32,594 nt of DNA from Pseudomonadota bacterium. GTDB taxonomy: Bacteria; Pseudomonadota; Gammaproteobacteria; Steroidobacterales; Steroidobacteraceae. Below are positions 14,752-18,864 of the stretch, piece after piece. Each line of letters starts with the position of its first letter. The stretch's first letter is position 1. The stretch covers positions 1 to 32,594 of the forward strand of contig JAPLSF010000044.1 in the NCBI GenBank assembly GCA_026398785.1, given 5' to 3'. The notes beneath the pieces are model-generated. The model made no database searches. It saw only the letters and a program-made list of their open reading frames with translations, and was not told the DNA's origin. Both the position numbers and the translations under genes were made by a program.

Positions 14752-14767
14752 TGGCACGCAAGTTGCC
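14752..14767 (+). promoter_or_regulatory. Sigma-54 (RpoN) promoter consensus upstream of the LysR gene
   Basis: TGGCACGcaagTTGCC matches the -24/-12 consensus TGGCAC-N5-TTGC. The invariant GG (14753-14754) and GC (14765-14766) are separated by exactly ten bases. The predicted start is near 14778, 12 bases before the ATG at 14790. The TTG at 14763 sits inside the -12 element, which argues against it as the translation start. Confidence 0.6.
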
Positions 14768-14789
14768 CGTCTCTTACGAAACGAACGGT

Positions 14790-15707
14790 ATGGACATGGT
14801 TGCCCAGATCAGGACGCCGCCTTTGCGGCTGCTGCGAGCTTTTTGCCTCGCGGCTCGCCACTCGAGTTTCAAGGATGCGGCAGACCGTCTGTCGCTGACG
14901 CCTTCGGCCGTCAGCCACCAAGTCAAGGAACTCGAAGAACAACTCGGCGTTACGCTGTTCCAGCGACGGACGCGGTCCGTCGTGCTGACACCCGTTGGCC
15001 GGCAACTGCTGGATGACCTCGAGCCGGCCCTCGGCGCCCTGAGCACGGCCATCGAACGCACGCGCAACACGTCCGGCGCCAGGCGCCAGCTGACGATCGT
15101 GATGCCGCCGTTCTTCGCCAGCGAACTGTTTGCGCCACGACTGCCCGACTTTCACGCCCACCATCCTGGCATCGACATCCAGGTCGACACGCACGACCCG
15201 CGCCCCGGCCAGCATTCGGGGTTCACGGATGTCTCGATCGTCCTGTCGGGCAGCCCGCCCGCCGACGGGGATGTCGAGGCCGTGCGTCTCATGCCCCTGC
15301 AGCTGGTGGCGGCGGCATCGCCGAAAGTCGCCAGTTCCATGGCCGGCAAGCTCAACGCCCGCGCGTTCGACGGCCAGACCCTGGTCATGCATCGCAGCTT
15401 CCGCAACGACGTCTGGGATCTCTGGCTCAACCAGGTCGGGCTCGATCTGCGCCGGGTCAGCAACGTGGTCGAATTCGACAACATGGTCGCCGTCACCCGC
15501 GCCGCGGAGCGTGATGGTGGGATCGCACTGGTGCCCGCAATCGTCTGCCAGCCCTGGTTCGAACGTGGCGCACTGGTGCACATTCAGGGGTTCGACCTGC
15601 GTGGGGATGAGGCGTATTACCTCGTGGCCCGGCGCGCTGATTTCGAGCGTTCGGAAGTCTGCGCGGTGGTCGCGTGGTCGATCGAACAGTTCCAGGTTCC
15701 GGCATGA
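14790..15707 (+). CDS. LysR-family transcriptional regulator (GcvA-like)
   Basis: 305 residues from the ATG at 14790. The N-terminal winged helix-turn-helix is RLLRAFCLAARHSSFKDAAD through SLTPSAVSHQVKELEEQLG, then LFQRRTRSVVLTPVGRQLL (about residues 10-68). A periplasmic-binding-like effector domain follows (about 90-300). The HTH wording SAVSHQVKELEEQLGVTLF is close to the GcvA/AmpR branch. Neither neighbour is an obvious target; the GNAT gene upstream and the putative small RNA downstream are candidates. Starts at 14763 (TTG) and 14796 (ATG) are alternatives; 14763 overlaps the sigma-54-like element. An imperfect hairpin spans the stop codon. Confidence 0.9.
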   Translation: MDMVAQIRTPPLRLLRAFCLAARHSSFKDAADRLSLTPSAVSHQVKELEEQLGVTLFQRRTRSVVLTPVGRQLLDDLEPALGALSTAIERTRNTSGARRQLTIVMPPFFASELFAPRLPDFHAHHPGIDIQVDTHDPRPGQHSGFTDVSIVLSGSPPADGDVEAVRLMPLQLVAAASPKVASSMAGKLNARAFDGQTLVMHRSFRNDVWDLWLNQVGLDLRRVSNVVEFDNMVAVTRAAERDGGIALVPAIVCQPWFERGALVHIQGFDLRGDEAYYLVARRADFERSEVCAVVAWSIEQFQVPA

Positions 15708-15720
15708 CTCCGAATGCCGG
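15699..15720 (+). terminator. Hairpin across the LysR stop codon
   Basis: CCGGCAT (15699-15705) and ATGCCGG (15714-15720) form a perfect 7-bp stem with loop GACTCCGA. No T-tract follows, so termination is uncertain. Confidence 0.35.
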
Positions 15721-15750
15721 CGGGTGACGAAACATCACTCATCGATTGAC

Positions 15751-15790
15751 GAGACTTCGTTTGTCGCACTGCAGCATCAGACGTAGTCTC
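15751..15790 (+). promoter_or_regulatory. Candidate promoter and inverted repeat for the small RNA
   Basis: TTGTCG (15761-15766) and TAGTCT (15784-15789) are 17 bases apart and could serve as sigma-70 -35 and -10 boxes, giving a start near 15797. The inverted repeat GAGACT (15751-15756) / AGTCTC (15785-15790) brackets the same stretch and might be an operator. A TTGACG at 15746-15751 has no good -10 partner. Confidence 0.3.
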
Positions 15791-15933
15791 AAAACCGTCC
15801 AGCGGCTTCACTTATGTGGCTCTGGGGTGCACTCCCCCTGCGACCCCCGTCACATGAACCCGCCGGAACTTGCCGGGTGGCCTGGGACGCACTCCCCCTG
15901 CTCCCCCAGGCCATCCTGGCAAGTTATTTAGTT

Positions 15934-15979
15934 GAGGAAGGGGAGGAAGCGTAGGAAGGGGTTAGGGGTTAGTCGGAAG
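15934..15979 (+). other. Purine-rich tract with repeated GGA and GGGG runs
   Basis: Four GGA triplets lie within 45 bases, three of them as AGGAAG, interleaved with GGGG runs at 15940-15943, 15958-15961 and 15965-15968; the last two flank TTA. Within a transcript it could bind CsrA/RsmA-type proteins, pair with the C-rich loops upstream (GGGGAG with CTCCCC), or fold into a G-quadruplex. Confidence 0.4.
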
Positions 15980-16020
15980 ACTGGCGCAATACTCGGTCAT
16001 GTCACTGACCCGTAACGATT

Positions 16021-16044
16021 AAAGGCGCCATCGGCGCCTTTTTT
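16021..16044 (+). terminator. Rho-independent terminator
   Basis: AAAGGCGCC-atc-GGCGCCTTTTTT: a 9-bp stem including A-T pairs and a run of six T. It ends rightward transcription from the small-RNA region. There is no protein gene within 300 bases upstream on this strand, which supports an RNA transcript. Confidence 0.9.
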
Positions 16045-16145
16045 GTTGGCTCTGTCGCCGGCAAGAACGGACGGCAGGTGATGGCGCTCATTCCGGGACT
16101 CATCCGGGCGAGCGGAAAGGCAAACACGCGACAATTGCGGGCGGC

Positions 16146-16209
16146 CGATCCGGTGTCTTTCCCCGAGCTTGGAAAGGCAGACACGCGCTCGGGGAAAGAC
16201 ACCGGATCG
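16146..16209. repeat. Long perfect hairpin 1 of the repeat cluster
   Basis: A 22-bp perfect inverted repeat, with arms 16146-16167 and 16188-16209, closes a 20-nt loop (16168-16187). The inner arm is CTTTCCCCGAG / CTCGGGGAAAG, the same as in hairpin 2; the outer arm (CGATCCGGTGT) is specific to this copy. An alternative CTTTCC/GGAAAG pairing into the loop is possible. Confidence 0.9.
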
Positions 16210-16388
16210 ACCGCTTGCGCTACAGCGCCTGAGCGGATTCTCGCCAAGGCCAGAGAATCCGCACGGCGCATGCAGCCTGCCAAGGGTCGATCGGAGCGAC
16301 CAGTCGTCCAGTGCCGTGCTCGTAGCCGGTGATCGAAGTGCCACGGCTCGAGACTTCATACGCTCGCAACGCAACGTGACCGTTGCGG

Positions 16389-16462
16389 GCAAGCGAAGCG
16401 GGACCTTTCCCCGAGCGCGTGTCTGATTTTCCAAGCTCGGGGAAAGGTCCCGCTTCGCTTGC
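16389..16462. repeat. Long perfect hairpin 2 of the repeat cluster
   Basis: A 27-bp perfect inverted repeat, with arms 16389-16415 and 16436-16462, closes a 20-nt loop (16416-16435) that is the reverse complement of the hairpin 1 loop with two mismatches. The inner arm is shared with hairpin 1; the outer arm GCAAGCGAAGCGGGAC differs yet is perfectly self-complementary. Confidence 0.9.
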
Positions 16463-16517
16463 GTGCAACCAGCGCATGTCTGCCTTTGCGACCGCAGGCT
16501 CACGTGATCGCGCCCGA

Positions 16518-17144
16518 CTAGCTCCGTGCCGCCGCACCCTGCCGCAACCGGGCGTGTAACGGACTCGACCGGGGAAAGTGCGCCAGCAGGTACTCCATCT
16601 GGTCGGCGAGCACGCGCCGGCCCTTCAGGTAGATGTACTCCGCGTAGCTGGGCGTGAACGGCACAGCGATCAGCTGCAGCCTGGCCTGCTCGGGGGTCCG
16701 CCAGGCCTTGAGGTTGTTGCAGCGCCGGCAGGCCGTGACGACGTTGTTCCAGGTGTCCAGTCCCCCGCGTGAAATCGGCGTGACGTGATCGCGCGACAGC
16801 TGGCCCGTGGGGAAGCGCTGCGCGCAGTACAGGCAGAGGTACGCATCGCGGCGGAACAGGGTTTCGTTGTTCAGCGGCGGCACGTAGCCCTGATGCCGGT
16901 TGCCGGGATTGTGGCGGTGGCCGATCGTCGCAACGATTGAACTCACCTTGACGATGGTGCGCTCACCGGTGCGCGCACTCACGCCGCCCCGCAGCGAGAA
17001 GAGAGTCTGGCCGAACGCATAGGCGACCTGTCCCATGAAGTGCAACCGGACCGCGTCACGGTAGTCGATCCACTCCAGGGGCATTCCCGAGACGTCCGTC
17101 CGCAGGACTTCCTGCGAAAGTGCGTACTGCGAAAGGGTGCGCAT
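16518..17144 (-). CDS. HNH endonuclease family protein
   Basis: 208 residues from the ATG at 17144; starts at 17180 and 17270 would add residues unlike the rest. The C-terminal half holds a zinc-ribbon HNH nuclease fold: CLYC (104-107), LSRDHVTPISRGG with His120, TWNNVV with Asn134, and CRRCN (139-143). The N-terminal half (MRTLSQYALSQEVLRTDVSG, then WIDYRDAVRLHFMGQV) resembles a widespread solitary bacterial HNH family of unknown role. It may nick or cut DNA. No methylase, phage or toxin partner is adjacent. It diverges from pntA, and its 3' side faces the hairpin-repeat cluster, a link that could be chance. Confidence 0.88.
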   Translation of the reverse strand: MRTLSQYALSQEVLRTDVSGMPLEWIDYRDAVRLHFMGQVAYAFGQTLFSLRGGVSARTGERTIVKVSSIVATIGHRHNPGNRHQGYVPPLNNETLFRRDAYLCLYCAQRFPTGQLSRDHVTPISRGGLDTWNNVVTACRRCNNLKAWRTPEQARLQLIAVPFTPSYAEYIYLKGRRVLADQMEYLLAHFPRSSPLHARLRQGAAARS

Positions 17145-17268
17145 GCCGTGAAGATACGGCACTGCTGTGCAATAATCCATGGCTGTCTTGCAGTCGTGAC
17201 TGTACAAAATATCCCTTTCACGGCAGCGGCTTAGCCGCGTCCGGGTTACGGGGAGGATGCCAGAACCC

Positions 17269-18864
17269 ATGTCGCTAACGATCGGAGTGCCGCGCGAAAT
17301 CTACGCGGGCGAGAAACGTGTTGCCGCCGTCCCGGAAGTGGTTGAGAAGCTGCTCAAGCTTGGTTTCGCCGTCCGCGTCGAAAGCGGTGCCGGGGCAGCC
17401 GCCAACTTCAGCGACGAGTCCTACCAAGCCGCAGGCGCACAGATCGCAGGCAGCGCCGCAGAGCTCATGGGCGGCTCGGACATCATCTTCAGGGTGCGCG
17501 CGCCGGCGCCGGAAGAGATCGCGTTGATGCAGCCAGGCAGCACCCTGATCAGCTTCATCTGGCCGGCGCAGAACCCGCAGCTCATGCAGCAGCTGGCCGA
17601 CCGCAAGCTCACCGTGCTGGCCATCGACTCCTTGCCGCGCCAGCTCTCCCGCGCCCAGAAGATGGACGCGCTCACCTCCATGGCCAGCATCAGCGGTTAC
17701 CGCGCCGTGATCGAGGCTGCCAACGCCTTCGGCCGGTTCTTCAACGGCCAGGTCACCGCTGCCGGCAAGATTCCGCCGGCCAAGGTCTTCATCGCCGGCG
17801 CCGGTGTTGCCGGTCTGGCGGCGATCGGCACGGCCGCCAACCTCGGCGCCATCGTGCGCGCCAACGATACGCGCGCCGAGGTGGCCGACCAGGTCGTGTC
17901 GCTGGGCGGCGAATTCGTCAAGGTCGACTACGAGGAAGAAGGCTCCGGTGGCGGCGGCTACGCCAAGGTGATGAGCGAGGGCTTCCAGCAGGCCCAGCGC
18001 GAGATGTACGCCAGGCAGGCCAAGGACGCGGACATCATCATCACCACCGCCCTGATTCCGGGCAAACCCGCGCCAAAGCTCATCACCGCCGAGATGGTGA
18101 AGAGCATGAAGCCCGGCAGCGTCATCGTCGACATGGCGGGCGAGCAGGGCGGCAACTGCGAACTCACCGTTCCCGGCGAAGCCGTGGTCCGGCACGGCGT
18201 CACCATCATCGGCTACACCGACCTGGTCAGCCGCCTGGCCAAGCAGGCCTCGACCCTGTACTCGACCAACCTGCTGCGCGTGACCGAGGAACTGTGCAAG
18301 ACCAAGGACGGCATCCTCAACGTCAACATGGACGACGACGCCATCCGCGGCCTGACCGTCATCAAGGCGGGCAGCATCACCTGGCCGCCGCCGGCACCCA
18401 AGTTGCCGGCCGTGCCGGCGCAGGCCAAGCCGGCGGCAACACCTGCTACGCCAGCAAGGAAGTCCGGCCATGGCCACGGCGCTGGCGAACCTGCGTCGGC
18501 CAGGAGCCTCGCAATCATCTTCGGCGCAGGCGCGCTGCTGTTCTGGCTGGTCGGCGCGTTCGCACCGGCTTCGTTCCTCGCCCACTTCACCGTGTTCATC
18601 CTGGCCTGCTTCATCGGCTACATGGTGGTGTGGAACGTCACGCCTGCGTTGCACACGCCGCTGATGAGCGTGACGAACGCCATCTCGAGCATCATCGCGA
18701 TCGGTGCGCTGGTGCAGGTCGCGCCGCCGCTCCTTGCGGGGACGGAAGGGCGGCCCGACACGCTGATCCTCGGTCTCGCGATCGTTGCGCTCACGCTCAC
18801 CGCCGTCAACATGTTCGGCGGCTTCGCCGTCACGCGTCGCATGCTTGCGATGTTCCGCAAGTAA
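17269..18864 (+). CDS. pntA: NAD(P) transhydrogenase subunit alpha
   Basis: 531 residues. Domain I (about 1-375) is the alanine dehydrogenase-like NAD(H)-binding part: TIGVPREIYAGEKRVAAVP at the start, the nucleotide fold FIAGAGVAGLAAIGTAANLG and GSVIVDMAGEQGGNCELT. A Pro/Ala-rich linker (about 375-405) leads to four C-terminal membrane helices (about 410-531), as in the E. coli single-chain alpha subunit. With PntB it couples proton flow to hydride transfer from NADH to NADP+. The start is uncertain: GGGAGG (17251-17256) is directly adjacent to ATG 17257 (spacing zero) but 12 bases from ATG 17269, so the latter is preferred. pntB follows after 12 bases. Confidence 0.96.
   Translation: MSLTIGVPREIYAGEKRVAAVPEVVEKLLKLGFAVRVESGAGAAANFSDESYQAAGAQIAGSAAELMGGSDIIFRVRAPAPEEIALMQPGSTLISFIWPAQNPQLMQQLADRKLTVLAIDSLPRQLSRAQKMDALTSMASISGYRAVIEAANAFGRFFNGQVTAAGKIPPAKVFIAGAGVAGLAAIGTAANLGAIVRANDTRAEVADQVVSLGGEFVKVDYEEEGSGGGGYAKVMSEGFQQAQREMYARQAKDADIIITTALIPGKPAPKLITAEMVKSMKPGSVIVDMAGEQGGNCELTVPGEAVVRHGVTIIGYTDLVSRLAKQASTLYSTNLLRVTEELCKTKDGILNVNMDDDAIRGLTVIKAGSITWPPPAPKLPAVPAQAKPAATPATPARKSGHGHGAGEPASARSLAIIFGAGALLFWLVGAFAPASFLAHFTVFILACFIGYMVVWNVTPALHTPLMSVTNAISSIIAIGALVQVAPPLLAGTEGRPDTLILGLAIVALTLTAVNMFGGFAVTRRMLAMFRK

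Follow-up and report, generated by a model that had tools for sequence, protein, structure and literature searches.

We analysed a window of 32,594 nucleotides that makes up one complete contig (G000:C375) of a fragmented, 85% complete genome of 3.12 Mb (G000), which is known only as an environmental genome bin and belongs to a family represented mostly by draft genomes. On the + strand of this window, a gene for a LysR-type regulator (14763-15707) is separated by 810 bases (15708-16517) from an HNH endonuclease gene on the opposite strand (16518-17270). This gap, whose size agrees with the initial annotation, holds no plausible protein gene. The LysR protein, which carries the Pfam domains LysR_substrate and HTH_1, is GcvA-like: its best NCBIfam model is GcvA (192 bits, below the cut-off of 288) and its best solved relative is GcvA 8y6u. 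Directly 3' of this gene, and linked to it in both species in which we found it (see below), lies a conserved core of about 135 nt (15796-15929, + strand) that folds into two hairpins with C-rich loops. The gap is not otherwise empty and also contains a G-rich minisatellite (15934-15980) and a palindromic repeat (about 16108-16495).

The two hairpins carry identical copies of the 13-mer GCACTCCCCCTGC at 15829-15841 and 15889-15901 of the + strand, exactly 60 nt apart as noted initially, and no other copy occurs in the window (0.01 matches expected by chance). Folding placed both copies at the tips of consecutive hairpins, in keeping with the arrangement first described. Hairpin 1 (15799-15866, + strand) has an interrupted stem and a predicted energy of -29.8 kcal/mol (z -2.75; 5 of 200 shuffles as good), which is weaker than that of hairpin 2 (15867-15925, + strand), where a stem of 20 bp with one bulge, called near-perfect in the initial annotation, reaches -40.3 kcal/mol (z -7.3; equalled by none of 200 shuffles). 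The 13-nt C-rich loop that had been assigned to both hairpins is present as an identical sequence, but its outer GCA and UGC form a 3-bp collar and the unpaired part is strictly the 7-nt apical loop CUCCCCC (15832-15838 and 15892-15898). The loop region includes UCCCCCU, a motif reported for loop 3 of sX13 and for HPnc5490/RepG (PMC3771888). The two 13-mers are enclosed in a 26-nt direct repeat whose copies are 85% identical, which suggests that one hairpin may have been copied from the other.

A DNA search of 98 relatives returned one ortholog of this element. It comes from another species of the genus (G007; contig JAABQQ010000227.1 of a gammaproteobacterial bin), where it directly follows the ortholog of the LysR gene. 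The two LysR orthologs are 88% identical in amino acids, 91% in DNA and 83% at four-fold degenerate sites. Identity between the two species is 51% in the 45 nt that follow the LysR gene (15708-15752), 93% in a promoter block (15753-15794) and 95% in the RNA (15795-15929; 7 changes in 135), and only 5 of the last 13 readable G007 bases 3' of 15929 are identical, such that the conserved block has sharp edges. Had the RNA changed at the rate of the LysR four-fold sites (17%), about 23 differences would be expected in place of the 7 seen (P about 3e-5, treating sites as independent and taking the LysR four-fold sites as the neutral rate). On the basis of this selective conservation and of the sharp block edges, the unit under selection is about 15753-15929, that is, the promoter together with the 135-nt RNA. 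Among these seven changes, four affect unpaired positions, and the three within pairs all preserve pairing (GU to GC twice, GC to GU once); in this set of two sequences, which is too small to show much covariation, 0 of 47 pairs are lost in either species and both loops are invariant. We consider 15753-15929 very likely to be a genuine non-coding element, conserved and structured, and probably a small RNA.

The conserved block upstream of hairpin 1 contains a putative + strand promoter (15761-15789) with a -35 hexamer TTGTCG (15761-15766), a 17-nt spacer and a -10 hexamer TAGTCT (15784-15789). It is the only match to TTGNNN-N15..19-TANNNT on either strand of 15700-16050 and recurs at the same place in G007; the hexamers are weak, and a stricter sigma-70 consensus scan gave no match. 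A transcript initiated from it would be expected to start at about 15796, 7 nt after the -10 hexamer and directly before hairpin 1. Between the LysR stop codon and this promoter lies a dyad (15738-15753) that reads CTCATC-GATT-GACGAG here and TTCATC-AGAC-GATGAA in G007, with a compensated outer pair, and that may be an operator or a weak terminator.

Alternatively, the block could belong to the LysR mRNA as its 3' untranslated region and terminator, in which case the hairpins would only stop transcription and protect the mRNA end and any small RNA would be a by-product of processing. In support of this, the block shares the strand of LysR and lies some 90 nt beyond its stop codon, both species keep the two together, and UUAUUU comes after the very stable hairpin 2. 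Against it, the 45 nt that separate the block from LysR are unconserved (51%) while the promoter-type block 15753-15794 is conserved, and two identical, invariant loops are not needed by plain terminators. We therefore regard a LysR mRNA end as an unlikely explanation of the block.

The extent of the RNA can be read in two ways. Hairpin 2 is followed by UUAUUUAGUU (UUAUUUCUU in G007), and the U-rich tail ATTTAGTT (15926-15933, + strand) could provide a proximal 3' end; a terminator scan also marked 15906-15919 plus CAAGTTATTT as terminator-like. With UUAUUU directly behind it, hairpin 2 may thus terminate the RNA at a length of about 135 nt. Further downstream, the intrinsic terminator with which the stretch had been said to end is present by pattern on the + strand (AAAGGCGCCATCGGCGCCTTTTTT, 16021-16045), has near-identical copies elsewhere in this and other genomes, and could form the distal 3' end of a transcript of about 250 nt. 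The extent of 248 nt proposed initially is in accord with this distal terminator but is probably too long: conservation stops at 15929, and the core is therefore about 135 nt rather than 248, while 15934-15980 is one copy of a G-rich minisatellite that recurs across this genome and two others of the genus. Either 3' end is possible, with the short form the likelier functional core. A 250-nt RNA reaching to 16045 could also carry a built-in antagonist, in that the G-rich segment 15934-15980 would pair with the C-rich loops. The strength of the + strand terminator at 16021-16045 and the presence in this segment of GGGGAG, complementary to CUCCCC of the loops, are what such an RNA would call for; however, the segment is a genome-wide dispersed repeat that is absent from the 13 nt readable at this place in G007, and the minimum-energy fold of 254 nt leaves both loops open. 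An RNA with its own antagonist is, in our estimation, quite unlikely.

The consensus fold of the core from both species favours the + strand (-73.6 kcal/mol, z -9.5) over the - strand (-69.6 kcal/mol, z -5.9). This difference weighs against an RNA transcribed from the - strand, whose loops, reading GGGGGAG, might be bound at GGA by a CsrA/RsmA-type protein. Single-sequence folds are slightly more stable on the - strand, and the dyad at 15738-15753 pairs better there, with all pairs kept only on that strand; against this, the - strand has no promoter-type match, conservation is missing from the 13 nt past the block at that end, and only two GGA sites exist, neither in ANGGA context. Transcription of the element from the - strand thus appears very unlikely.

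As to protein coding, the ORF at 15814-15954 (+ strand, 46 aa) is the only ATG-started + strand ORF that runs across both loops without a stop, and a second listed ORF, TTG-started and in another frame, spans 15746-15931. The initial annotation had held that relatives losing the stems while keeping an ORF with synonymous bias would speak against an RNA, and the comparison with G007 gave the reverse pattern, with pairs kept and every codon difference in the aligned part of the 46-aa ORF non-synonymous, a substitution pattern on which we rejected a coding explanation. A small protein whose repeated ALPL codons account for the repeated DNA is thus extremely improbable, even though the 60-nt distance between the copies is a multiple of 3 that keeps them in the same reading frame, since all ORF differences to the ortholog alter amino acids, the C-terminus is not shared and no Shine-Dalgarno sequence precedes the ATG.

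Searches of Rfam at gathering and lenient thresholds gave nothing relevant, in agreement with the earlier remark that the sequence is not recognised as a known family; sX13 (RF02232) had no match in 15700-16100 (all Rfam, E<=10) or in the whole genome bin (E<=1), and the covariance model of sX9 (RF02228) gave none over the cut-off in the bin's own genome. The search of relatives with a covariance model that had been suggested at the outset was carried out with a model built from the two orthologs (R1), which recovered both known copies and no further one in 217 genomes of the family and 396 of the order, sets that overlap partly (some 550 genomes of the order) and were searched with strict filters that may lose diverged copies. 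A twin-loop pattern run over the genomes of 84,980 species returned 101 stretches; among the hits read, which left out those with several overlapping matches, only the G007 contig had both loops on matching hairpins, and the others were low-complexity, repeats or unrelated. The single 13-mer is present in 22 of the 217 family genomes, and among the folded contexts, those on the forward strand of their own locus, its loop-and-stem arrangement is limited to G000 and G007. Phages and plasmids gave no copy of the RNA, and none of seven pattern hits in viral contigs was alike. Nor was it found in the other genus members searched, some of them near complete, in which the LysR gene was represented by one partial ortholog (G008, 72%) ending at a contig edge and otherwise by distant paralogs. 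Because several genus members are incomplete and the filters strict, two species is a lower bound for the distribution.

C-rich hairpin loops on stable stems are known to act on G-rich mRNA sites in sX13 (PMC3771888) and in RepG/HPnc5490 of Helicobacter pylori (PMC8295292), and such action was inferred by the authors for the CCUCCUCCC RNAs of alphaproteobacteria (PMC3927594). In the work on sX13, re-established base pairs could fail to rescue regulation where the G-motif itself served as an enhancer (PMC3771888). The feature of this class, an unpaired C4-C5 motif in stable hairpin loops, is predicted here in both species. The RNA resembles sX13 of Xanthomonas (RF02232) in being intergenic and highly structured, in its similar size (115 nt for sX13), in its C4/C5 loops with UCCCCCU and in its variable flanks. 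By contrast, sX13 has three hairpins with C4/C5 loops, always lies downstream of polA and is restricted to Xanthomonadaceae (PMC3771888), whereas this RNA has two hairpins with identical C5 loops, lies beside LysR and has no covariance-model match. The polA gene of G000 is on another contig, where a protein-coding start follows about 80 nt later and the gap lacks C-run hairpins. Identity with sX13 is thus ruled out by the missing RF02232 match, the different locus and the two loops in place of three, as the initial annotation had supposed. With SmelA075 and SmelA099 of Rhizobiales and RSs0680a of Rhodobacter it shares a C-rich anti-Shine-Dalgarno motif repeated in successive loops, two in RSs0680a as here, and in the SmelA075/RSs0680a group the stems diverge and the loops persist (PMC3927594). 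These RNAs differ in being alphaproteobacterial and in having the loop CCUCCUCCC rather than CUCCCCC, no Rfam family was matched here, and membership among the CCUCCUCCC anti-Shine-Dalgarno RNAs was rejected on the loop sequence. RepG/HPnc5490 likewise has a C/U-rich loop with UCCCCCU that binds G-repeats in mRNA leaders and that is part of the terminator hairpin, as may be true of hairpin 2, but it belongs to a different phylum and has one active loop whose target is a phase-variable G-tract (PMC8295292). We conclude that this is probably a previously unlisted RNA family of a known functional kind, the C-rich-loop small RNAs, and separate from sX13.

We regard pairing of CUCCCCC with G-rich Shine-Dalgarno regions as plausible. 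At -12 kcal/mol, sites complementary to the loop were predicted in more start regions than coding regions (22 versus 4 among 245 genes of G000, and 10 versus 0 among 165 genes of G007, both sets from a simple gene caller). The reversed loop GUCCCCCUCAC scored about equally (20 versus 6 and 15 versus 4, respectively), and the enrichment therefore reflects the composition of G-rich Shine-Dalgarno regions and is not specific to this loop. Genome-wide, GGGGGAG is located 3-11 nt before an ATG at 20 sites in G000 and 24 in G007, compared to 6 and 3 for the reversed pattern. Orthologs share such a site in five of the 20 G000 cases, about what general similarity would give, and these five pairs (coaD, two acyl-CoA ligases, a wax-ester synthase and a GGDEF protein, the coaD and acyl-CoA ligase genes being named by eye from sequence) are candidates only. 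Sites of this kind thus stand before two acyl-CoA ligase genes and a wax-ester synthase gene in both species. In the window itself, the pntA leader also carries ACGGGGAGG, as a candidate target only; a cis-acting element for pntA was ruled out, as the terminator and the opposite-strand HNH gene lie in between.

The sequence, its predicted fold, its conservation, its linkage to LysR and its lack of an Rfam match are results of this analysis. In the best explanation, of which we infer transcription, the 3' end, target pairing, the direction of regulation and any LysR control, 15796-15929 would be a trans-acting small RNA that is transcribed from its own promoter 3' of the GcvA-like LysR gene and forms two stable hairpins, each displaying the same CUCCCCC loop. 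Several mRNAs whose Shine-Dalgarno or enhancer sequences are G-rich (GGGGGAG, GGGGAG) would be bound by these loops and translated less, and the presence of two identical loops could offer two chances on one mRNA or enable one RNA to bind two. This mode of action fits the anatomy of the element and the known RNAs compared above, and we judge it, overall, rather probable that a small RNA targets G-rich translation starts with its C-rich loops. Of the trans-acting small RNA with C-rich loops proposed initially, a conserved structured non-coding RNA with kept structure, no coding signal, a conserved + strand promoter and no Rfam match is thus well supported, and the 248-nt extent is probably too long.

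The GcvA protein of E. coli regulates GcvB, a small RNA encoded next to it. The present locus likewise places a GcvA-type LysR gene beside a small RNA gene, and by this analogy one idea is that the LysR protein might control this RNA; GcvB differs in being divergently transcribed and in having a G/U-rich region, and homology of the two pairs is not claimed. A more far-reaching account, which we offer tentatively and hold to be doubtful, is that a new family arose recently in one lineage beside a GcvA-like LysR gene and under control of its product, that its twin CUCCCCC loops tune a regulon with GGGGGAG Shine-Dalgarno sites, for which the five gene pairs above are candidates, and that the loop solution of sX13 and RepG evolved here independently. 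If real, the RNA would be another unrelated origin of the C-rich-loop design of sX13, RepG and the CCUCCUCCC RNAs, which would suggest that stable C5-loop hairpins are an easily evolved translation control in bacteria with G-rich ribosome-binding sites. With a range of two species and a LysR gene next door, it might also serve to study how small RNAs become linked to their regulators.

The two repeats of the gap are dispersed elements. The palindromic repeat (16108-16495) consists of two long hairpins of 28 and 35 bp in inverted orientation, 94-96% complementary and with 18-nt loops, common CTTTCCCCGAGC stems and a GGAAAGGCAGACACGCG core; it has 82 matches in its own genome and looks like a REP/BIME or MITE-type family. 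The minisatellite 3' of the conserved core (15934-15980, + strand), which ends in GGGGTTAGTCGGAA, has about 45 other partial matches in its own genome. Such minisatellites are variable arrays of 7- or 9-base units (GGGGTTA, AGGAAGGGN), mostly ending in GGGGWTAGTCGGAA. Exact ends number 14 in G000, 13 in G007 and 32 in G004 (0 for reversed-pattern controls), with one in a fourth genome of the genus and none in the other five members; a near-constant end on a variable array is unusual.
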